From Secundilactobacillus odoratitofui DSM 19909 = JCM 15043 (GTDB lineage: Bacteria > Bacillota > Bacilli > Lactobacillales > Lactobacillaceae), in contig NZ_AZEE01000025.1 of the NCBI RefSeq assembly GCF_001434895.1, positions 1 to 64,000 of the forward strand: a stretch of DNA of 64,000 bases, given 5' to 3'. The notes under the pieces are model-generated. The model was not told where the DNA came from and ran no database searches. It saw only the letters and a program-made list of their open reading frames with translations. Positions 9,593-62,310 of the stretch are shown here, one piece after another. A program made the position numbers and the translations under genes. Positions within the stretch are counted from its first letter, which is position 1, and the number at the start of each line of letters is the position of its first letter.

Positions 9593-9639
9593 ATTTACCG
9601 CTATTAAAATTATTAATCATCACTGTCACGACCACTCCA

Positions 9640-9807
9640 GGTAACACGCCTTTTCAGCTGCTGTGGGACCGACTTCAGCCACGAAAAACACGTGTCTTCC
9701 GCCTCGCTTGTGAGCCTTCAAAACCCGAAGTCTCACAAACGTCCAGTTCGAGTAACCGCTAAAGCGCTAACTCGAACTTGTCACTGCAACTGAAAAACCG
9801 CGTTACC
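9640..9807 (+). repeat. Structured intergenic element, alpha subtype (left member of pair 1)
   Basis: P1 arms are 9640-9661 and 9786-9807 (GGTAAC...CAGCTGC with GCAACTG...GTTACC). The core GCTGTGGGACCG starts at 9659. P3 is TTGTGAG/CTCACAA and P4 is AGTTCGAGT/ACTCGAACT, followed by TTGTCACTGC. Its 5' flank (CCACTCCA) and 3' flank (CTTCCG, then CTCACGTTA) are shared with the other alpha copies. Confidence 0.85.
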
Positions 9808-9947
9808 TTCCGCTCACGTTACCATGATTATAGTAGTAATAATTGTCCTTCACCAAAAAGTTACTGAACAATCCGACTATCAACTATCGAATTCATGTAA
9901 CCAAAATTCGACAAATTTTCACCCACTACATAAGCCGTAGTGCCAGA

Positions 9948-10110
9948 AGCCAGTCTTTTGGGCGGGTAGCAGTGACTAGTGCCACTTTGCGCGTAGCGCT
10001 TAGTGGCACTGGACGCTTCTGAGCCTCGAAAATCACGAGTCTCAGAAGCGAGACGGAAAACGCGAAGCGGTTGAAGTCGGTCCCACAGCTACCCGCCCAA
10101 AGGACTGGCT
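9948..10110 (-). repeat. Structured intergenic element, beta subtype (right member of pair 1)
   Basis: P1 arms are 10110-10088 and 9970-9948, starting AGCCAGTC and ending GGGTAGC on the minus strand. P3 is CGCTTCTGAG/CTCAGAAGCG and P4 is AGTGCCACT/AGTGGCACT. The 5' flank carries GCCTTCGGCCGCC and the 3' flank CACTACGGCTTA. It ends about 15-30 bp from the stop codon of the facing phosphatase gene, which has no other obvious terminator. Confidence 0.85.
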
Positions 10111-10140
10111 GGCGGCCGAAGGCGGACTTCTAACTAATTA

Positions 10141-13096: not shown

Positions 13097-13192
13097 TACT
13101 GCCACTACCACTTCAGAAAACGCGAAGCGGTTGCAGTCGTTCCCACAGCTACCCGTCAAAAGCCAGGCTGGCGGCCAAAGGCGGCATTTCCA
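13097..13192 (-). repeat. Deletion remnant of a structured element pair
   Basis: The right part (about 13114-13192) matches the 5' half of beta copies: GCCGCCAGCC, a P1 5' arm ending CGGGTAGC, then GCTGTGGGAACG and the stretch GAAAACGCGAAGCGG on the plus strand. P3, P4 and the P1 3' arm are missing. The left part (about 13097-13112, CTGCCACTACCACT) matches the 5' flank of alpha copies such as that at 38180. The simplest reading is an alpha/beta pair whose middle was deleted. Confidence 0.7.
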
Positions 13193-19681: not shown

Positions 19682-19726
19682 ACATCTTATAAGTCGCTAA
19701 ACGATTGTCTTCCGCCTTCGGCTCCC

Positions 19727-19871
19727 GGTCAGGGTGGGGGATGCTGTGGGGCCGGTCCGAGCCAAAATGCTGTCTCGGACCTCGAAGTTGAATCGTGCCA
19801 AAACCCATGCACGTTTCAACTTCGTCCCCGACTGGTTACCCAGTCGTTTCACTGCATCCACCACCCTGACC
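19727..19871 (+). repeat. Structured intergenic element, gamma subtype (left member of pair 2)
   Basis: P1 arms are 19727-19744 and 19854-19871 (GGTCAGGGTGG/CCACCCTGACC, one mismatch). The core is GCTGTGGGGCCGG. Hairpins are P2 GGTCCGAG/CTCGGACC, P3 CGAAGTTGAA...CGTGC with its complement, and P4 GACTGG/CCAGTC, followed by GTTTCACTGC. The flanks CCGCCTTCGG and CACTACGGCTTA are shared with beta copies. Confidence 0.85.
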
Positions 19872-20065
19872 GTCCGCACTACGGCTTACATTATACATTT
19901 AGGTTCGTTTGGCTAATTGGAAATACAGCGGTCTTCAAGACACATTGGTCCTGTTGCAATCATCAAAAGTTAAATGCAGCAATTTATATTTGATAAATTC
20001 TCTACTTAAACTCTTCCATTTCAACTAGATAAGCTTCCAACCTGGATATAAGCCGTAGCGCCACC

Positions 20066-20228
20066 AGCCAGTTTTTCTGGCGGGTAGCAGTGACTAGTGC
20101 CACTTTGCGCGCCAGCGCTTAGTGGCACTGGACGCTTCTGAGACTCGTAATTTTCGGGGCTCAGAAGCGAGACGGAAAACGCGAAGCGATTGAAGTCGGT
20201 CCCACAGCTACCCGCCAAAAAACTGGCT
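20066..20228 (-). repeat. Structured intergenic element, beta subtype (right member of pair 2)
   Basis: P1 arms are 20228-20207 and 20088-20066 (AGCCAGTTTTTTGGCGGGTAGC on the minus strand with its near-perfect complement). P4 AGTGCCACT/AGTGGCACT is as in other beta copies. It lies about 40 bp beyond the terminator of the symporter gene. Confidence 0.85.
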
Positions 20229-20265
20229 GGAGGCCGAAGGCGTCCGCTACAAGTTTCGCCATTTC

Positions 20266-26455: not shown

Positions 26456-27059
26456 TTTCTACCAACTCCTTAAAGGCCAGTAAACCGTTCAGTCCAACTT
26501 GACCGCTTTTTTCCGGGTGAAATTGCATGCCGATGACGTTGTCTTTTTGAACAATGCTTGGCAGCGTCACACCATAATCACAGGTCGCCAACGTGTATTT
26601 TTCACTGGTTTTAACGTAGTACGAATGCACGAAATACGTTGCTTCTTGATCAAAACCTTTGGCAATTACACTTGGTTGTGTGACCTGGTTTTGGTCCCAG
26701 CCCATGTGTGGCACCTTGACACCTAAGTCATCCGGAATTGCGACCACTTCACCCGGAATCAGGCCAAGTCCGGCCGTTTCACCAAACTCAAAACTACGAT
26801 CAAATAATAACTGCATGCCCAGACAAATGCCTAGCATTGGCATCCCCGACTTGGCTGCTGCTTGAATAACGGGAATCAATTGCCGTTCGTTCAGTGCATC
26901 GACCGCTTTTTTAAAGGCCCCCACACCGGGCAGAATCAACCCATCTGCTTGATTGATTACCTCAGAGTCTGCTGACAAAACATTATCAATGTTGAGATAA
27001 TCCAGCGCCTTTTTCACGTTGCGGGTATTACCCGTATCATAATCAATGATGACAATCAT
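26433..27059 (-). CDS. hisH: Imidazole glycerol phosphate synthase, glutaminase subunit
   Basis: Class I glutamine amidotransferase supplying ammonia to HisF. At 208 residues it has DYDTGNTRNV, LPGVGAF, the nucleophile in GICLGMQLLF (about Cys79), and the His-Glu pair in MQFHPEKSG (about 183-187). It overlaps hisB by one base. Confidence 0.96.
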   Translation of the reverse strand: MIVIIDYDTGNTRNVKKALDYLNIDNVLSADSEVINQADGLILPGVGAFKKAVDALNERQLIPVIQAAAKSGMPMLGICLGMQLLFDRSFEFGETAGLGLIPGEVVAIPDDLGVKVPHMGWDQNQVTQPSVIAKGFDQEATYFVHSYYVKTSEKYTLATCDYGVTLPSIVQKDNVIGMQFHPEKSGQVGLNGLLAFKELVENGNYSRN

Positions 27060-27643
27060 CAGATCACTCCTTTAGTCGACGGCACACCCTTAATTTCAGG
27101 ATTTAGTGTCACGGCTGCGCGTAACGCCCGACCTAACGCCTTGAAGAGCGTTTCAACTTTATGGTGAGTGTTACGACCGTACAGTACTTCGGCGTGAAGA
27201 TTCAACTCTGCATTAAATGCAAAAGCTTGGAAGAAATCCTCGGTGACTTCTGTATCGTAATCGCCTAATCGTGGACTAGTTAGTTCCGCGTTGAAAACCA
27301 AATAACTACGACCAGATAAATCAACCACTACGCGGCTTAAGGTTTCGTCTAATGGAATTAAAGCCGATCCAAACCGTTCGATGCCCTGTTTATCACCTAA
27401 CGCTTGCTTGAGTGCCATACCAAGCGCAATGCCAACGTCTTCGGTGGTGTGATGCGGATCAACGTCCAGGTCACCAGTTGCCTTTACAACCAACCCAAAG
27501 CGACCGTGCCGAGCAAAGGCGTCTAACATATGATTGAAAAAGCCGATACCGGTATCGATCTCAATCGTGTCGTAATTGTCCAAATTAAGGCTGAGCTCAA
27601 TTTGTGTTTCGTTGGTGTCTCGTTTTATCGTTGCTTGTCTCAT
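27059..27643 (-). CDS. hisB: Imidazoleglycerol-phosphate dehydratase
   Basis: Manganese enzyme making imidazole-acetol phosphate. The 194-residue monofunctional form lacks the N-terminal phosphatase domain of enteric HisB. Metal motifs are [25 protein letters not shown] and [12 protein letters not shown]. It begins 558 bp after hisD; the gap holds element pair 3. Confidence 0.96.
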
Positions 27644-27742
27644 GGTGTACTCCTTTGGGTGTGTCTGCTTTTCCGTTAAAATGCTGATTCGTGATTCTAC
27701 TACTATTTATCCAAGTAAACGTGACTGTTTGACTACCACTCC

Positions 27743-27906
27743 GGTTATCAGCGGTGGTCTGCTGCTGTGGGACCGGCTTCAGCCACTCTGTTTCTTACGC
27801 CTCGTTATCAAGCCTTGAAAATCACAAGTCTCGGTAACGTCCAGTGGTTGTAAGTGCTAAAGCACTAACGACCACTTGTCACTGCTGCTGACCACCGCTG
27901 ATAACC
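27743..27906 (+). repeat. Structured intergenic element, alpha subtype (left member of pair 3, inside the his operon)
   Basis: P1 arms are 27743-27765 and 27884-27906 (GGTTATCAGCGGTGGTC with GACCACCGCTGATAACC; one bulged pair near the core). P3 is GTTATC/GGTAAC and P4 is AGTGGTTGT/ACGACCACT, both with G-T wobble pairs. It is antisense to the his transcript. Confidence 0.85.
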
Positions 27907-28008
27907 TCCGTTCTCGTCTGGCGTCGATGCGGTGAGAAAAACAGTACGAATAAAAATCATCAAACAACAATATAATCATTCTGCTCGATCTCAGCCGGAG
28001 GTAACCAA

Positions 28009-28155
28009 GTCGGTTGGCTACCGCTGTGAAACGATTGGTGGGTTTCACCAATCGGGGACAAGTCTAAGACGAGCAATGGTTTTTAGCTCGGCTTGGACTT
28101 GAGGTTCGAGACCGATCTTCGGCTCGAACCGGCCCCATAGCGGTAGCCGACCGAC
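28009..28155 (-). repeat. Structured intergenic element, gamma subtype (right member of pair 3, inside the his operon)
   Basis: P1 arms are 28155-28139 and 28025-28009 (GTCGGTCGGCTACCGCT with AGCGGTAGCCAACCGAC). The core reads CTATGGGGCCGG. P2 is GGTTCGAG/CTCGAACC, P3 is closed by CAAGTC/GACTTG, and P4 is GATTGGTG/CACCAATC. It is in the sense direction of the his operon, 47 bp after the hisD stop. Confidence 0.85.
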
Positions 28156-28201
28156 TTCGTTGCCGGAGGCGAACATCACAGCAATGTACGTTTACTTAGT
28201 G

Positions 28202-29482
28202 TTATTTAAACCGAGCTTCAACAGCACGAGCGTGGGCTTCAAGCCCTTCAACCCGAGCCAACGTTGTGATCGCCTTTTCCTCTTTCTTCAAGGCCGCTTT
28301 CGAATAGGTCACAAACTGAATTCGCTTCACAAAATCAGATACCCCAAGTGGTGAGAAGAACCGCGCAGTCCCACCAGTAGGTAAAATGTGATTGGGACCG
28401 GCCACATAATCACCAACCGGCTCCGAGGCGTTGAAGCCCAAGAAAACGGAGCCAGCGTTTTTAATTTGGTTCAAATATTGCATGGCATCGGCCAGCTCAA
28501 TTTCCAAGTGTTCTGGTGAAATGGCGTTCATAACTGTGAAAGCTTCATCAAGGTTATCAACCACAGCGATAAATCCTTTATTCGCAACTGATGCACTAGC
28601 AATTTCTCGTCTTGGTAAAGTTTCAAGTTGCCGATCAATTTCAGCACTCACTGCATCCGCAAAGGCCTCACTTGGTGTGACTAACATTGGGCGAGCTAAC
28701 TTATCGTGTTCGGCTTGTGATAGTAAGTCTGCAGCAACATTCTTTGCATCCGCACTGTCATCTGCAATTACGCCGATTTCAGAAGGTCCGGCAATCATAT
28801 CAATGTCCACTTGACCAAAGACCTGCTTTTTCGCTACAGCCACAAAAATATTACCTGGACCAGTGATTTTATCGACACGTGGTACACTCTGTGTCCCGTA
28901 CGCTAAGGCTGCAATTGCCTGCGCACCACCAATTTGATACACTTCATCGATGCCAGCAATTTTAGCCGCTGCTAACACAGCTTGGCCAATGCCATCCTTT
29001 TGTGGTGGCGTGACCATCACAATTTTTTCAACGCCCGCTAACTTGGCTGGAATCACGTTCATCAAAATCGATGATGGATAGGCTGCGGTACCACCTGGCA
29101 CGTATAGCCCGACTGCTGCCAAAGGGGTAATCTTTTCGCCACGCACAACACCGGGCTGTTCAGCGTCAACAAAACCATTTTGAATTTCTTTCTTGTGATA
29201 GCTGATAATGTTACTTTTAGCGAGGTTCAAGGCGTCGATCAATGATTGATCTGCGTTTTGATAAGCTTCATCAATCGCTGCCTGTGACACACGGAGGTCA
29301 TCCAGCTCAACTTGATCAAATTTTTGACTGTAAGCCTTTAGCGCCGCATCACCATTTTTAATGACATTAGCAATAATTTCCGAAACGGCCGCTTCAACTT
29401 CTGGCTGGTTAGCCTGTTGGTCGGTTTGACGATCAACTTGTTCTAGTAATTGTGAGAGGGTTTGATTTTTTAAAATTTTCAT
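28202..29482 (-). CDS. hisD: Histidinol dehydrogenase
   Basis: Two-step NAD oxidation of histidinol to histidine with zinc. At 426 residues it shows YVPGGTAAYPSSILM, GGAQAIAALAYGT, the zinc/catalytic region AGPSEIGVIAD, LLSQAEHDKLARP, and the general-base Glu-His pair in ISPEHLEIE, then GPNHILPTGGTARF. It overlaps hisG by 4 bp. Confidence 0.96.
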   Translation of the reverse strand: MKILKNQTLSQLLEQVDRQTDQQANQPEVEAAVSEIIANVIKNGDAALKAYSQKFDQVELDDLRVSQAAIDEAYQNADQSLIDALNLAKSNIISYHKKEIQNGFVDAEQPGVVRGEKITPLAAVGLYVPGGTAAYPSSILMNVIPAKLAGVEKIVMVTPPQKDGIGQAVLAAAKIAGIDEVYQIGGAQAIAALAYGTQSVPRVDKITGPGNIFVAVAKKQVFGQVDIDMIAGPSEIGVIADDSADAKNVAADLLSQAEHDKLARPMLVTPSEAFADAVSAEIDRQLETLPRREIASASVANKGFIAVVDNLDEAFTVMNAISPEHLEIELADAMQYLNQIKNAGSVFLGFNASEPVGDYVAGPNHILPTGGTARFFSPLGVSDFVKRIQFVTYSKAALKKEEKAITTLARVEGLEAHARAVEARFK

Positions 29483-30111
29483 TGCGCATTCACTCCTTGG
29501 GTTTGTTGTAAGGCATCAATTAAACTTCTAATCTGTGGTTGGTACTGTTTGAGCGCCAGTCGATTCACGACTAACTTAGTGCTAACGGGCTGCAACTCCG
29601 CGTAGACGTGCAGGTTATTTTCCTTCAGCGTCGTGCCCGTTTCGGTGATATCAACGATGGCATCCGCTAAGCCAATTAACGGTGCCAATTCCACGGAACC
29701 TTCAATTTTGATAATTTCAACATCTTCGCCAATACTTTGAAAGTAACGTTTAGTGATATTCGGATATTTGGTTGCAATAATTTTTCGGCTAACTTGCTGT
29801 GGATCGAAGTCACTTGTGGAGGCGAGAACGAAACGACAGCGACCGACGCCTAAATCCAGCATGGCGTACTGTGGATTACGTTGCTCGTCTAAAATATCGC
29901 TCCCGACGATACCAAGCTGCACCGCGCCACTGTTGAGATATGTTAAAACGTCGGGACCCTTCACCAAAATAGTTTCGTAAACGGGATCTTCATCAAAAAT
30001 CAACCGCCGCCCCTTGCTGCGAATGCCAGAACAATCAATGCCACTGGCTTCCAGTAACGGCACAACTTGTTGTTCCACGCGGCCCTTAGTTAACGCTATC
30101 TTAATTGGCAT
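29479..30111 (-). CDS. hisG: ATP phosphoribosyltransferase, short form
   Basis: Commits PRPP and ATP to histidine synthesis. The 210-residue short form lacks the C-terminal regulatory domain and needs HisZ. Motifs: IALTKGRV, GADVL-like GPDVLTYL, VGRCRFVLAS and the PRPP loop DAIVDITETGTTLKEN. It starts 4 bp after hisZ. Confidence 0.95.
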   Translation of the reverse strand: MPIKIALTKGRVEQQVVPLLEASGIDCSGIRSKGRRLIFDEDPVYETILVKGPDVLTYLNSGAVQLGIVGSDILDEQRNPQYAMLDLGVGRCRFVLASTSDFDPQQVSRKIIATKYPNITKRYFQSIGEDVEIIKIEGSVELAPLIGLADAIVDITETGTTLKENNLHVYAELQPVSTKLVVNRLALKQYQPQIRSLIDALQQTQGVNAQ

Positions 30112-30115
30112 TTGC

Positions 30116-31255
30116 TCACCTGCTTTCTGTTAAATCAATCAGTTGCTTGGCGGTGCTAACGGCAATTCGTTCTGCTTCCTCACGACTGTCCGCCAAACAT
30201 AACGTACTATTTGGTGTTCTTGCTAAGGTTGCTTCAGCTAGTTGCCATTGATCAGCATCAAAGTAGATCAAGGTTTGGGGCGGTGTTGCGGGTGTTGCCA
30301 CCTTGTCAGCCAGGGCATCAACGTCAAAGGCCAACCCAACAGCCGGCTCCTTGACCTGTTGGAAACTCTTCAAGAGGTCATCGTAGCGACCACCACTAAA
30401 TAAGTAATCCGACGCGTTTTGCGTATACCCTCGGAAAGCCATTCCCGTGTAATAACGTTGCGGTGACGGAATGCTGAGGTCTAATACCACTCGTTGCGAT
30501 GGTGCTTGCTGCTTAAGGAAAGCCGCAGTCGCCTTTAAATCATCAATCACCGGGGTTAAGGCAGGAATCGCTGGTAATTTGGCAACGACTTTCATCACGT
30601 CATCGAATTCACCGAACAACCAGGGCCATTCAGCTAAAAACGGACCAAACGGTGTCTTTGCCAGTAGCGCTGAAATTTGCTGATAAGTCGTTAGATTCTT
30701 TGCAAATAGTGCTTGTTGCAACGCTTGTTTCGTTGGCGTTGGTACTGGCAGTGCTTCAAGGACGCTCGCAACGAACCGGGCATCGCTGAGTTCTAACGTC
30801 ATTTCAGTGACACCAGTTTCGCGACAACCTGCTAACGCAATCATCAATGATTCCCATTCGCCCTTAAGACCACCATAGCCGACCAACTCGAAGCCGGCCT
30901 CGCTGATCTGGTTATAGCTGCCGGATAACTGTTTCTTGACCCGAAAAACGTCGCCGCTGTAATACCACTTAGCGGGTAGCTCCACACCAGTCGTACTCAA
31001 CATCCGTGCCACTGGTAACGTCAAATCAGGCCGCAGTACCAAGGCTTCACCTTGCTCATCCAACAACTGATACGCGCGGTTGTTTGTGAGATTCAACGGT
31101 TTAAATACATCCGCGTATTCCAAGATTGGTGTGGTGAGTTTTTCAAACCCGCGTTGCTTTAAGATGGCCAGTAGCTTTGCGGTAATCTGTTCCTTCACCG
31201 CGGCTCTGGGACCAAATTCATCTCGCGTCCCACTTGGTAAATTTCGATTTTTCAT
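30116..31255 (-). CDS. hisZ: ATP phosphoribosyltransferase regulatory subunit
   Basis: A histidyl-tRNA-synthetase-like paralogue that forms the octameric HisZG complex and carries feedback control. It has class II motifs (TTPILEYADVF, LRPDLTLPVARM, a C-terminal GGRYDDLLKSF) but no anticodon domain, about 379 residues. First gene of the operon, behind a T-box. Start: ATG 31255 has AGGGG about 6 nt upstream; an in-frame GTG at 31261 is too close to the RBS. Confidence 0.93.
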   Translation of the reverse strand: MKNRNLPSGTRDEFGPRAAVKEQITAKLLAILKQRGFEKLTTPILEYADVFKPLNLTNNRAYQLLDEQGEALVLRPDLTLPVARMLSTTGVELPAKWYYSGDVFRVKKQLSGSYNQISEAGFELVGYGGLKGEWESLMIALAGCRETGVTEMTLELSDARFVASVLEALPVPTPTKQALQQALFAKNLTTYQQISALLAKTPFGPFLAEWPWLFGEFDDVMKVVAKLPAIPALTPVIDDLKATAAFLKQQAPSQRVVLDLSIPSPQRYYTGMAFRGYTQNASDYLFSGGRYDDLLKSFQQVKEPAVGLAFDVDALADKVATPATPPQTLIYFDADQWQLAEATLARTPNSTLCLADSREEAERIAVSTAKQLIDLTESR

Positions 31256-31294
31256 TGTCACGCCCCTTTTCGACCATCGCTGTGTTTAGAAAAT

Positions 31295-31545
31295 AAAAAA
31301 GTCCTCGCAAACTAACTTAATAGTTTACGAGGACGATATAATCGCGGTTCCACCTCAATTTGCCGACACCTCACGATGCCAACCTTACGTTGCCAATAAC
31401 TAGTCGTCGAAGCCCACTTCGAGAACAGTTACGGTAACCCTGATAACGCTAAACATGCGGAGGGGCTTACTTTATTCAGCCCATCAGTTCATAGAGGTGT
31501 TTCACGGTATCAATGGTCTGGTTCACACCGGCCCAAACTCTCTTA
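31295..31545 (-). promoter_or_regulatory. T-box leader with His (CAC) specifier before hisZ
   Basis: On the minus strand: Stem I begins AGAGAG (31543-31538) and its 3' side reads GTGAAA-CAC-CTCT, placing the specifier CAC (His) at 31499-31497. The T-box core GAGGTGGAACCGCG lies at about 31356-31343. The terminator stem GTCCTCGTAAACTA with its complement is at 31334-31301, then TTTTTT. Uncharged tRNA-His should stabilise the antiterminator. The UGGN base is A, which would need U73 for a standard pair. Confidence 0.9.
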
Positions 31546-31713
31546 ACATTGACTCACCGTTACTTTTTCTAATCACAACTTTATTTTGTCATTTAGTTTT
31601 AATTTATGAGTTAAATTTACCACCAAATTCTAATTTGTCAACTGATTTTTCTTAAAAATAATCAAGTTACATTTTAAATTCCGGATAATCATAACTCGTT
31701 TGACTGCCACTCC

Positions 31714-31877
31714 GATTACCAGTGGTGACTAGCTGCTGTGGGACCGGCTTCAGCCACGACATGTCTTACGCCTCGTTGATGATCCTTGAAGTTCACAAGT
31801 CTCATCAACGTCCAGTGTTTGTAAGTGCTAAAGCACTAACAAACACTTGTCACTGCAGCTAACCACCGCTGGTAACC
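31714..31877 (+). repeat. Structured intergenic element, alpha subtype (left member of pair 4)
   Basis: P1 arms are 31714-31736 and 31855-31877 (ATTACCAG...AGCTGC with GCAGCT...CTGGTAAC). P3 GTTGATGA/TCATCAAC and P4 AGTGTTTGT/ACAAACACT are perfect and differ from every other alpha copy by paired changes. Confidence 0.85.
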
Positions 31878-32009
31878 TTCGTTCTCGTCAGGTAATGTAA
31901 AATCTTATTACATATCTGTCCAGGCCATTGGAATCGAGACGTACAACTTCAGCGTACATTTCAAACCAAAATTTCTAGCAGCCTTCGTCCACTGCATCAG
32001 TCAGAGATG

Positions 32010-32165
32010 GTCAACTCGGTCGGTTGTTGCTGTGAAACGATTGGTGGTTTTCACCAATCGGGGACAAGTCTAAGACGAGCAATGGTTTTGGCTCGGCTTA
32101 GACTTGAGGTCCGAGACCGCCGTTTGGCTCGGACCGGCCCCATAGCGGTAACCGACCGAGTTGAC
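32010..32165 (-). repeat. Structured intergenic element, gamma subtype (right member of pair 4)
   Basis: P1 arms are 32165-32144 and 32031-32010 (minus strand GTCAACTCGGTCGGTTACCGCT, complement with G-T pairs). P2 is GGTCCGAG/CTCGGACC, P3 CAAGTCTAAGCCGAGC with GCTCGTCTTAGACTTG, P4 GATTGGTG/CACCAATC. It begins 37 bp after the stop of the ABC ATPase gene, with no separate terminator between. Confidence 0.85.
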
Positions 32166-32201
32166 TACCGAAGGCGAAAGTCACAACTTGAACTTATTAA
32201 A

Positions 32202-38169: not shown

Positions 38170-38196
38170 ATTAGTTTGGCTGCCACTACCACTCCA

Positions 38197-38364
38197 GGTA
38201 AGGCGTTTTTGCAATTGCTGTGGGACCAGCTTCAGCCACGAAAACCACGTGTCTTTCGCCTCGTTTGTGAGCCTTCGAAGACCAAAGGCTCACAAACGTC
38301 CAGTTCGAGTAATCGCTAAAGCGTTAACTCGAACTTGTCACTGCAACTACAAAAACGCCTTACC
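38197..38364 (+). repeat. Structured intergenic element, alpha subtype (left member of pair 5)
   Basis: P1 arms are 38197-38218 and 38343-38364 (GGTAAGGCGTTTTTG with CAAAAACGCCTTACC). The G-to-C change relative to pair 1 (GGTAAC/GTTACC to GGTAAG/CTTACC) is compensated. P3 is GTTTGTGAG/CTCACAAAC and P4 AGTTCGAGT/ACTCGAACT. It starts 28 bp after the aminopeptidase stop. Confidence 0.85.
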
Positions 38365-38486
38365 TTCCGTTCTCGTTACTTACACCTGTACACCACAACG
38401 TTGTTTGACAATATGCCAGTTGATCATTGACTTAAAAAACCATCGTATGGTCGAATTTCACCCGCAATATGAGCCGTAGTGCCAGA

Positions 38487-38650
38487 AGCCAGTCTTTTGG
38501 GCGGGTAGCAGTGACTAGTACCACTTTGCGCGATAGCGCTGAGTGGTACTGGACGTTTCTGAGACTCATGGGTTTCGAGGCTCAGAAGCGAGACGAAAAA
38601 CGCGAAGCGGTTGAAGTCGGTCCCACAGCTACCCGCCAAAAAGACTGGCT
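38487..38650 (-). repeat. Structured intergenic element, beta subtype (right member of pair 5)
   Basis: P1 arms are 38650-38628 and 38509-38487. P4 is AGTACCACT/AGTGGTACT, a compensated A-T for G-C change relative to pairs 1 and 2. The flanks GCCTCCGGCCGCC and CACTACGGCTCA are present. Confidence 0.85.
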
Positions 38651-38702
38651 GGCGGCCGGAGGCGGCTTTCATCAGTGTACTTTCAGTTCAAGCTGCCACA
38701 GT

Positions 38703-43816: not shown

Positions 43817-44611
43817 ATGCAAAGCTATAACTTAAATGAGACCCATATTGTGACACCTGATGAAGAAATTGCGCTGTCCACCCACCAACTGCAAGTCTTT
43901 TATGGCAGCAATCACTCAATGACCGACGCCAGTTTGAGCTTTCCCCGGTTTCAAATTACGGCGTTAATTGGTGCCTCAGGATCTGGCAAATCGACTTATT
44001 TACGATCGTTAAACCGAATGAACGATCGAATTGCAACAGTTAAGGGCGAAATTATGTATCGGCATACTGATATTAATAGTCGAAAAGTGAACGTATTTGA
44101 AGTTCGTAAACATATTGGCATGGTGTTTCAAAAGCCCAACCCATTCGCAAAGTCTATCTACGACAACATCACTTTTGCTTTAAAGGCAGCCGGACTAACC
44201 AATAAAAAAGTACTAGACGACCGCGTTGAAAGCAGTCTTAAAGAGGCGGCTCTCTGGGACGAAGTCAAAGACGATCTTCATAAGAGTGCACTATCCCTAT
44301 CTGGTGGGCAACAGCAACGACTGTGTATTGCCCGTGCAATTGCGATGCAACCCGACATTTTGCTACTCGATGAACCGGCCAGTGCACTGGATCCCATCTC
44401 CACTGCCAAATTAGAGATGACCTTGAAGAATCTGACGGAGAAATACACCATTATCATCGTGACCCACAATATGCAACAAGCCTCTCGAATTAGTACTTAC
44501 ACCGCCTTTTTCCACTTAGGTCACGTGATTGAATACGACAAAACAGAAACCATTTTTCAAACACCCCAAATTCAGGCTACTCGCGATTACGTTACCGGTC
44601 ACTTTGGCTAA
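43817..44611 (+). CDS. pstB: Phosphate ABC transporter ATPase, first copy
   Basis: The 264-residue ATPase has Walker [10 protein letters not shown], the Pst-specific [20 protein letters not shown], signature [14 protein letters not shown] and Walker [14 protein letters not shown]. An extension of about 20 residues precedes the ATPase core. Two pstB genes in tandem are common in lactic acid bacteria and streptococci. Confidence 0.94.
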
Positions 44612-44627
44612 CCACAGGAGGAACGTT

Positions 44628-45383
44628 ATGACACCAATTCTAGCAACCCAAAACGTGCGCCTGTCGTATGGCGAAAAAGAAGCGCTCCACGGAATTGATC
44701 TTAACTTTGACGAACATAGCATTACCGCTCTGATTGGTCCGTCGGGATGTGGTAAGTCAACTTACCTACGCTGTCTCAATCGGATGAACGACCTGATTGC
44801 TGACACGACCGTCACAGGTAGCTTTCAATTCCATGAACAAGATATCTACGCACCTACGACCAACTTAGTTGAACTTCGTAAGCAGATTGGCATGGTCTTT
44901 CAACAGCCAAACCCATTTCCCTTCTCACTCTACGAAAACGTCACCTATGGCTTAAAGCTTGCGGGTCATAATGACAAACGTTTTCTGGACGAGCAAGTTG
45001 AACGCGCGCTAAGACAGGCTGCAATCTGGGAGGAAGTCAAAGACGATTTGCATAAAAACGCCTTTTTGTTTTCTGGTGGTCAACAACAACGCATCTGTAT
45101 TGCGCGATTACTTGCAGTTCAACCTGACATTATTTTACTGGATGAACCCACTAGTGCACTTGACCCAATTTCAAGTGCACAAATTGAAGAAACGCTTCTG
45201 ACACTGAAAAACGACTACACGATTATCATCGTGACCCACAATTTACAACAAGCCTCCCGCGTTGCCGACCGCACCGCCTTTATGCTGAATGGCGATCTAG
45301 TTGAAGTCGACTCAACCAGTCAGCTATTTACTCAACCCGCCCACCAACAAACTAGTGACTACCTTAACGGGAAGTTCGGTTAG
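44628..45383 (+). CDS. pstB: Phosphate ABC transporter ATPase, second copy
   Basis: The 251-residue ATPase has [30 protein letters not shown] and [14 protein letters not shown], where the signature's first Leu is Phe. ATG 44628 follows CAGGAGG and begins 17 bp after the first copy. An in-frame frame extension to 44529 would overlap the first pstB and lacks an RBS. Confidence 0.94.
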
Positions 45384-46074: not shown

Positions 46075-46336
46075 TTCACTCGAACTTAGGCGTGAATCCC
46101 AACAACATCAAAAAGAATTAACTAGGGAATAGAAGCCATCTCATGCACTTCGTTGCCAAAATCACCGTGAGTGTTGAAAAGAATTAGTTGCTATTCGGTC
46201 GAACAACTGGTAAGCTGTTAACTAATGTATTTAATACTTCGAAATTTTGGTACGACGTTCGTAAGAATGACTTCCCTATTTCAAAAGTTTCAGATACACA
46301 AATATATTGCGCTATGCGCTCGGAGGTTTCATTCTT

Positions 46337-46537
46337 ATGGAACAAGGTACTGTTAAATGGTTCAACGGTGACAAAGGTTTTGGTTTTATTACATTGGAAA
46401 ACGGTTCAGACGTTTTCGTACACTTCTCAGCAATCAATGCTGAAGGTTACAAGACGCTTGAAGAAGGCCAAAAAGTAACTTTGGACGTTGAAGACGGCGA
46501 CCGCGGCCCACAAGCTGCTAACGTTACTGTTGCTTAA
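46337..46537 (+). CDS. Cold-shock protein (CspA family)
   Basis: The 66-residue OB-fold RNA chaperone has [12 protein letters not shown] (RNP1), VFVHFSAI (RNP2) and a C-terminal GPQAANV. GGAGG lies before ATG 46337. The 260 bp between phoU and this gene contains no other frame and may include a long, structured 5' leader as in other csp genes. Confidence 0.95.
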
Positions 46538-46556
46538 TTCAATTTAAGCGTTTAAA

Positions 46557-46590
46557 GAAACCATCATTTCTTCGGAAATGGTGGTTTTTT
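46557..46590 (+). terminator. Terminator of the cold-shock gene
   Basis: AAACCATCATTTC, TTCG tetraloop, GAAATGGTGGTTTTTT. Confidence 0.92.
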
Positions 46591-46653
46591 GTGTCTTAAA
46601 TTTTGGTAATTCACTCTCACCAAAGTAATCTTATAGCTGCCACTGTCACTCCA

Positions 46654-46821
46654 GGTAACGCGCTTTTGCCGTTGCTGTGGGACCGGTTCCAGCCACGAAA
46701 ACCACGTGTCTTCCACCTCGTTTGTGAGCCTTCACAACCCAAAGTCTCACAAACGTCCAGTTCGAGTAAGCGGTAAACCGCTAACTCGAGCTTGTCACTG
46801 CAACGGCAAAAACGCGTTACC
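46654..46821 (+). repeat. Structured intergenic element, alpha subtype (left member of pair 6)
   Basis: P1 arms are 46654-46675 and 46800-46821 (GGTAACGCG...GCCGTTGC with GCAACGGC...CGCGTTACC). The P4 inner helix AGCGGT/ACCGCT replaces the CGCT/AGCG seen at 9.7 and 38.3 kb. Confidence 0.85.
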
Positions 46822-46979
46822 CTCCGTTCTCGTTACTAATGTTAATGGGACAATTACGGCAAGTTTTTCTTTTTTATCAATCTGAGTCTGTTCACCAAGA
46901 ATTATTTTCAAAGTTACGTGTAAGAGCCAAAACCATAATAAAAATAAACATTGACCACCCTATAAGCCGCAGTACCAGA

Positions 46980-47142
46980 AGCCAGTTTTGGGGACGGGTA
47001 GCAGTGACTAGTACCACTTTGCGCGCAGCGCTTAGTGGTACTGGACGTTTATGAGACTCGTGGTTTTCGAGGCTCAGAAGCGAGACGGAAAACGCGAAGC
47101 GGTTGAAGTCGGTCCCACAGCTACCCGTCCCCAAAACTGGCT
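46980..47142 (-). repeat. Structured intergenic element, beta subtype (right member of pair 6)
   Basis: P1 arms are 47142-47120 and 47002-46980; the minus strand begins AGCCAGTTTTGGGGACGGG, with its exact complement in the other arm, differing from beta copies in pairs 1 and 5 by compensated changes. P4 is AGTACCACT/AGTGGTACT. Confidence 0.85.
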
Positions 47143-47186
47143 GGCGGCCGGAGGCGGAATTCACTCGTTTTAAATTGACCAAGTAC

Positions 47187-61753: not shown

Positions 61754-61792
61754 CACAACGGTATAATCTATTTGTGCTCGATTGCGCCTTCG

Positions 61793-61944
61793 GCTCCCGG
61801 TAAGGTGGGGACCTGCTGTGGGGCCGGGTCGAGCCCAGGTCTCGACCCTCGAAGTTGAACCGTGCCAAAACCCGTGCACGTTTCAACTTCGTCCCCGACT
61901 GGTGGCCCAGTCGTTTCACTGCAGGTCCCCACCTTACCGGGAGC
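61793..61944 (+). repeat. Structured intergenic element, gamma subtype (left member of pair 7)
   Basis: P1 is a perfect 24-bp helix, arms 61793-61816 and 61921-61944 (GCTCCCGGTAAGG...ACCTGC). The core is GCTGTGGGGCCGG. P2 is GGGTCGAG/CTCGACCC, P3 CGAAGTTGAA/TTCAACTTCG plus CGTGC/GCACG, P4 GACTGG/CCAGTC. It lies 39 bp after the hydrolase stop with no other terminator in between. Confidence 0.88.
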
Positions 61945-62088
61945 ACTACGGCTTATATTGAATCGGACCTTTGATATTAAGGACAATCGGCTTAATCGCG
62001 TAATGTCATAATAATTCAGCGGTGTAACCTTTCAACCGAAAAGTAAGCGACTACTACTGTTCACCACTACGTAAGCCGTAGCGCCAGA

Positions 62089-62251
62089 AGCCAGTTGGTT
62101 TGACGGGTTGCAGTGACTAGTGCCACTAAGCGCTGCGCGCAAAGTGGCACTGGACGTTTCTGAGACTCGCGGGTTTTGAGGCTCTGAAACGAGACGGAAA
62201 ACGCGGAGCGGTTGCAGTCGGTCCCACAGCAACCCGTCAAACCAACTGGCT
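62089..62251 (-). repeat. Structured intergenic element, beta subtype (right member of pair 7)
   Basis: P1 is a perfect 23-bp helix, arms 62251-62229 and 62111-62089 (minus AGCCAGTTGGTTTGACGGG); the inner half GGTTTGACGGGTTGC differs from all other beta copies with full compensation. P3 CGTTTC/GAAACG replaces CGCTTC/GAAGCG. The P4 loop is the reverse complement of that in other beta copies. Confidence 0.88.
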
Positions 62252-62310
62252 GGCGGCCGAAGGCGGACTTCATCGCATCAATATACTTGTAATGACTTTC
62301 ATACACATCA

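Follow-up and report, generated by a model that had tools for sequence, protein, structure and literature searches.

The hisD-hisB gap and its contents

The locus raises the question of why a histidine operon whose genes are otherwise packed end to end should open widely at a single junction. In the window (the whole stretch of 64,000 nucleotides analysed here) the minus-strand his genes run from hisZ (31261) to hisC (23220), behind a T-box leader at 31326-31585 (minus strand; RF00230, 116.6 bits). Their junctions are overlaps or spacings of at most 11 bp (hisZ and hisG are 4 bp apart, hisG and hisD overlap by 4, hisB and hisH by 1; overlaps also occur at hisH-hisA, hisA-hisF and hisF-hisI, hisI and hisE adjoin, and hisE and hisC are 11 bp apart), except that hisD (28202-29482, minus strand) and hisB (27059-27643, minus strand) are separated by exactly 558 bp, at 27644-28201. 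The reading frames of both genes are intact.

The gap is filled by two elements. Gamma occupies 27987-28178 on the minus strand (outer limits by eye; model match 27997-28167, 94.6 bits), starts some 20-25 bp past the hisD stop codon and reads GCTATGGGGCC...TTTCACAGC on the his strand. Alpha, at 27728-27918 on the plus strand (outer limits again by eye; model match 27738-27911, 166.1 bits), faces it across a spacer at 27919-27986. A 10-bp inverted repeat encloses the pair, one arm being AAGTAAACGT at 27713-27722 on the plus strand and the other lying at 28188-28197 on the minus strand (ACGTTTACTT on the plus strand); among the 46 pairs checked in the assembly such an enclosure is not a general feature. 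A run resembling a ribosome-binding site, AAAGGAG, was recognized by eye before hisB at 27650-27656 (minus strand). Compared with 100 dinucleotide shuffles, the 558 bp fold better by 9.6 SD on the his strand and by 9.8 SD on the other.

A sister pair (31698-32185) is found a short way upstream of the operon, where it separates an ABC-transporter gene from the hisZ T-box leader. It has alpha at 31698-31892 (plus strand) and gamma at 31997-32185 (minus strand); both halves are 83-86% identical to those of the his pair, while its spacer (31893-31996) is unlike the his spacer. The preliminary description of the locus, which had reported the tightness of the other his junctions and an alpha/gamma pair in the gap with gamma in the sense direction, is borne out on all these points: both halves recur in the sister pair and among the related elements of the assembly, and gamma on the his strand with alpha opposite is the arrangement of every two-element site that we found. 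Its nomenclature is refined in one respect, as alpha and gamma are subtypes of a single family, one covariance model matching both.

In the reading that we regard as probable, the gap contains one copy of a non-autonomous, REPIN-like unit, consisting of two homologous facing elements of about 190 nt and a fast-changing spacer, which acts as folded DNA. Such a unit would spread through copying of the folded DNA by an enzyme supplied in trans, and one copy would have landed between the hisD stop codon and hisB.

The same junction in related species

With the HisD of the window as query we collected 80 loci, including those of 12 named Secundilactobacillus species. A comparison of gap lengths in relatives had been proposed in the preliminary description, and it finds the junction tight in 10 of these 12 species, in which hisD and hisB overlap or are 10-12 bp apart: eight are spaced by 10-12 bp as measured by script, in S. 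kimchicus hisD overlaps hisB by 4, and in S. similis the distance is 11 bp by eye. The script had given 121 bp for S. similis, a value rejected as an artefact because the hisD match (1277 nt) is out of frame; the length of this match (L049:6001-7277) is not a multiple of three, pointing to a frame change or an assembly error. In S. collinoides the gap is 356 bp, and the corresponding sequence (L033:7284-7641) contains a GC-rich hairpin and a masked run. In S. paracollinoides no hisB is present in the 528 bp that remain on the contig after hisD, and hisD is therefore followed by at least 528 bp of other sequence.

In a HisD-HisB tree the species of the window lies near S. similis, with the forks open, S. 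collinoides and S. paracollinoides form a separate, well-supported clade, and the short-gap species occupy several other branches. The simplest reading of these relationships is that the junction was enlarged at least twice separately. About 25 bp beyond gamma and about 80 bp beyond alpha are likewise missing from the relatives, so that the his insertion is not a clean one.

The insert of S. paracollinoides (G009; L036:7285-7812) itself belongs to a dispersed family, found with alignments longer than 100 bases at 40 separate places of the genome (74 match lines, many of which are pieces of the copies) and with 21 match lines in genome G002. When 20 copies are aligned with the his copy, the unit that emerges is conserved over about 560 nt and contains two structured parts, one of which includes a 69-nt stretch matching the other in reverse. 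Unlike the family of the window it keeps its spacer conserved, and our covariance model (R1, described below) gives no match to it. This two-part dispersed unit indicates that the S. paracollinoides junction took up a different paired repeat, and the place where the his pair is found is also one where a sister lineage acquired a repeat of another kind.

Structure and covariation of the elements

Each element, about 190 nt long, is closed by a long stem, P1, and contains the three hairpins P2, P3 and P4, in the order P1 strand, GCTGTGGGRCCG, P2, CTCG, P3, CGTCC, P4, TCACTGC, other P1 strand, with the junction letters conserved. The covariance model R1, built from 42 elements of the assembly, has 58 pairs in seven helices and matches alpha, beta, gamma and one further end type. 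A fragment at 13100-13185 of the window combines an alpha-like start with a beta-like end and is perhaps the remnant of a pair without its middle.

In a structure-blind MAFFT alignment (A1), 94.6% of 2408 cells are paired, against 70.2% in shuffles and 35-41% when the structure is slid along the alignment, and double changes are seen in 45 of the 58 pairs against 35.0 in shuffles. One of the five covariation measures, the number of further pair types, is not clearly above the shuffles, 82 of 500 of which reach the value of the elements. Among the elements of other genomes (97 matches) the paired share is 92.0% of 5272 cells, in an alignment that was fitted to the model, and 60 of 500 shuffles reach the observed number of further pair types. 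Overall the stems covary strongly. No Rfam family matches the element above its gathering score.

Copy number, pairing and distribution

The assembly contains at least 138 elements at 92 sites, a lower bound since 150 of 686 candidates were scored. Two elements are present at 46 sites, facing each other (→ ←) in all 46; the other 46 of the 92 sites hold single elements (24 on the minus and 22 on the plus strand), with a median of 126 bits as compared with 150 for the 92 paired elements. In the window, facing pairs are also found between convergent genes at 9620-10130, 19703-20248, 38177-38670, 46634-47162 and 61775-62271. The window also contains a cspA thermoregulator leader (46189-46589; RF01766, 89.1 bits), and two 300-nt direct repeats at 44090-45161, 71% alike and 772 bp apart, are probably a duplicated piece of a gene. 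The spread over the assembly is uneven: on the 680-kb contig C5 the 5 sites are confined to the first 86 kb, while 7 are found on the 71-kb C2 and 8 on the 93-kb C11.

The geometry in other genomes was studied in 20 regions of six genomes, using 93 of 97 matches after four overlapping opposite-strand matches had been dropped. Within these regions all 26 two-element sites, from five genomes of three other genera, are facing, and all three triplets read ++-; in the triplets (L249, G332) the second plus element follows 63-87 nt past the first. In the regions of S. similis (G013) 7 of 7 sites are single elements. For three of these a contig end is no more than 500 bases away, so that a partner could be cut off.

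Across the Lactobacillaceae, a match at E 1e-8 or better was obtained in 81 of 397 genomes and in 10 of 40 genera, in a survey with six candidates scored per genome and stricter filters. In the set of 15 genomes of the genus itself, two (G003 and G006) have no match and ten have 1-7. Four other genomes carry 146, at least 150, at least 150 and at least 150 copies; in several lactobacilli the copy number of this large structured repeat, which has no Rfam match, is thus well above one hundred. Among the copy-rich genomes is G239, apparently that of L. brevis CD0817, for which the accessible part of the genome paper counts 214 interspersed repeated sequences without describing them. Matches also lie within the loci surrounding hisD in Companilactobacillus baiquanensis, C. 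kedongensis and C. keshanensis, and in Lactiplantibacillus pingfangensis, L. herbarum and L. fabifermentans. A plasmid collection gave no match to one alpha and one beta element used as queries, and a plasmid origin was rejected on that basis.

Genomic placement

Genes and terminators were called with home-made programs. None of the 92 sites overlaps a called gene; 36 lie between convergent, 50 between tandem and 5 between divergent genes, and one is of unknown type. With 16 convergent, 196 tandem and 42 divergent cases among 254 element-free junctions, the convergent share is 36/91 for element sites against 16/254. Of 122 gene ends next to an element, 89 have a called terminator after the stop codon and ahead of the element, as compared with 53 of 106 element-free ends, and the end of hisD is one of ten tandem element-adjoining ends at which none was called. 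Avoidance of divergent spaces is not general, because 6 of 25 sites in the regions of G323 are divergent.

The pair is not a feature peculiar to the his operon; it is one copy of a Lactobacillaceae-wide repeat unit that often sits past terminators. The his copy has the value of a natural experiment, in which a unit of this kind lies instead inside a T-box-led biosynthetic operon.

A preference for convergent spaces and for positions behind terminators would also be expected of a structural element that the host maintains in the service of the flanking genes, be it by insulating them in both directions beyond terminators, by nucleoid or gyrase binding, or by protecting 3' ends, in which case the his copy would be a recruited regulator setting hisD against hisB-C. 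Against this explanation stand the patchy representation in the genus described above and the tightness of the his junction in 10 of 12 relatives; together with the evidence from orthologous places given below, we judge it unlikely.

Transcription across the gap

The strong structure of the his strand in the gap, and the fact that the stretch of about 80 bp before hisB (27644-27727) is new with respect to the relatives, could also be accommodated by an operon boundary, in which the pair or its flanks terminate transcription of the operon downstream of hisD and a second unit starts from a promoter ahead of hisB. A scan of 27450-28300 by simple consensus sites detected neither a sigma-70-like promoter, of which shuffles would give 0.6, nor, on the his strand, a terminator-like site (GC hairpin and T run); the sole terminator-like site is on the opposite strand, at 27644-27665. 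Nor are promoters enriched over control in the interior flanks of the elements in general, where 15 of 138 elements have an outward and 13 of 138 an inward promoter in the spacer. An operon boundary at this junction is accordingly a highly improbable explanation.

The preliminary description had argued that the pair cannot be a full terminator unless a new promoter lies inside it, and had named a promoter directly before hisB, together with a lack of read-through, as the finding that would speak for a boundary. The consensus scan found no such promoter, and the argument itself is partly supported: both a promoter and a his-strand terminator are missing from the scanned stretch, and the pair is an addition at a junction that 10 of 12 relatives keep tight. 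As far as the sequence allows a judgement, nothing found in it makes the gap an operon boundary, and the likeliest state appears to be an operon that is read through, with the T-box leader of hisZ at its head. Because neither promoter nor his-strand terminator was found, polymerase would be expected to read through the gap, and the operon would carry a highly folded stretch of about 550 nt between hisD and hisB. This folded insert would break the translational coupling of hisD and hisB, and may alter the stability of the hisBHAFIEC part.

Turnover of copies

When pairs are compared half by half, both halves of one prove to be related to those of others; pairs therefore duplicate as units. In alignments of sister pairs the halves are conserved, the spacers have diverged and the flanks are for the most part unrelated. 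Over 18 pair comparisons the halves average 90% identity and the spacers 0.50, against 0.45 for shuffled spacers; in the youngest trio of pairs spacer identity is 0.63-0.74. The spacers are thus nearly random.

High copy number, intergenic position and a short CTGYCRC-like start shared by the two outer ends of the pair (by eye) are properties that might be looked for in an ordinary DDE-transposon MITE with its terminal inverted repeats and duplicated target. For the 46 pairs, though, neither direct repeats (target duplication) nor general terminal inverted repeats outside the elements exceed mismatched controls, and the ends are cloverleaves of about 190 nt around a spacer that is not conserved, so that this origin seems extremely unlikely. 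A RAYT as mobiliser was rejected as well: Y1/RAYT (PF01797) has no match in the assembly and is uneven elsewhere, being matched in 7 of the 15 genus genomes, including that of S. similis (G013), in six of ten further element-bearing genomes (five times in the L. brevis-like G239; the four without a match include the copy-rich G323), and also in 5 of 14 control genomes.

Among close copies in the assembly, 770 of 1368 changed Watson-Crick pairs are again Watson-Crick. These counts come from 198 pairs of copies, which are not independent, and no probability is therefore claimed for them; the set comprises the first 138 of the 150 rows of alignment A2, of which one is a re-match (9943-10115, other strand) of an element already counted, and leaves out the weakest distinct element (37.7 bits).

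In three other genomes (G323, G277 and G332), which represent three species of another genus, elements are kept at orthologous places, within flanking blocks that are mostly 75-89% alike. Ten such elements were compared for G323 and G277, and the comparison extends to G332 for five of these; of the Watson-Crick pairs that have changed, 91 of 107 and 81 of 117 have become another Watson-Crick pair, in an alignment fitted to the model. Since they persist at orthologous places in three species, the elements are not simply short-lived mobile copies. This persistence, together with the compensated changes at these places and among the close copies of the assembly, favours a host-maintained element; but for one pair of species the identity at orthologous places lies anywhere between 0.65 and 0.94, a scatter that fits the replacement of whole copies, which yields matched stems for free. 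Because of this scatter, replacement of copies by other family members is likely to occur besides point change. At one place a pair in G323 corresponds to only a decayed half in G332 (by eye), and another place is empty in G323 and occupied in G277 and G332. About 1.9 kb of extra sequence, which could be an insertion into the spacer, separates the halves of an otherwise orthologous pair (L236 735-1224) at about 30000-32000 of G277:C3 (L277).

To return to the non-autonomous, REPIN-like unit, we propose in addition, and tentatively, that it may represent a new class of paired, cloverleaf-ended DNA repeat, present in at least 10 genera of Lactobacillaceae with up to at least 150 copies per genome, in which sites and structures are kept across species while letters and spacers turn over. 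Copying or exchange would then proceed by a mechanism still to be described, in several copy-rich genomes without a Y1 transposase. Against the REPIN-like reading itself count that neither a mobiliser nor target duplications nor general outer inverted repeats were found, that the his insertion is not clean, that half of the sites in the assembly have a single element, that elements persist at orthologous places, that further pair types do not clearly exceed shuffles, that some G323 sites are divergent, and that A-C outnumbers G-T in the assembly.

DNA or RNA

The covariation of the stems would also be expected if each element were the gene of a structured non-coding RNA, read outward from the spacer and ending at the bidirectional terminator of the flanking gene. 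The elements of the assembly at first favoured an RNA strand: the reverse strand folds with the lower energy in 41 of 42 elements, and A-C mismatches exceed G-T mismatches (242 to 117; 38 columns against 13), as if the reverse strand were the folded one, which would fit selection on one strand, either as RNA or as single-stranded DNA. Six other genomes then weakened this idea. A-C and G-T are about equal in G323, G332, G300 and G013, so that the strand asymmetry is absent there; G239 repeats the excess (32 to 13), and G360 has too few cells. The G-T share of paired cells in the six genomes is 0.9-3.5%, and the G-U share of the stems is low by the general expectation for an RNA family. With no promoter signal above control in the spacers and no match in Rfam, RNA genes are very unlikely to account for the family.

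On balance we lean towards folded DNA, because the A-C/G-T asymmetry is mostly absent elsewhere, the G-T share is low and the spacers give no promoter signal. The rarity of wobble pairs and their mostly absent strand bias outside the assembly suggest that the stems would be maintained by selection on the pairing of DNA rather than RNA.

Comparison with known repeat systems

In the open-licence literature searched we found no description of this repeat family. The stem-loop repeat families (PMC2267715), such as BOX and RUP of pneumococcus and Lac-1 of L. johnsonii, are likewise structured and dispersed, but the accessible part of that source describes no facing cloverleaf pair. REPs of 20-40 bp are mostly located between convergent and unidirectional genes, many of them next to 3' ends, according to the portion of PMC3733652 available to us, and the elements described here resemble the GTAG-tagged REP/BIME in this placement. 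They differ from them in size. GTAG occurs near the reverse-strand start of 72 of the 138 elements of the assembly (14.6 expected), but is not enriched in the elements of other genomes (9 of 93, against 9.8 expected). The words Firmicutes and Lactobacill do not appear in the text of PMC3733652.

The closest likeness is to the REPIN, in which, according to the accessible text of PMC8049555, two REP sequences lie in inverted orientation on either side of a short and highly diverse spacer and are duplicated by a RAYT. The two systems share homologous inverted elements in pairs, a short and diverse spacer, many intergenic copies, the lack of a gene of their own and the existence of singlets. They differ in that each half is here a four-way structure of about 190 nt rather than a REP of 20-40 bp (as sized in PMC3733652), in that the assembly has no Y1/RAYT match, and in that the family belongs to the Lactobacillaceae, while the same part of PMC8049555 tells of REPINs in E. 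coli and Pseudomonas. Our assessment is that the family would work like a REPIN but should not be filed as one, because it has the inverted pair and the diverse spacer and lacks the REP size and the RAYT. A REPIN-like architecture without a RAYT would mean that facing-pair repeats have a different way of arising or of persisting.
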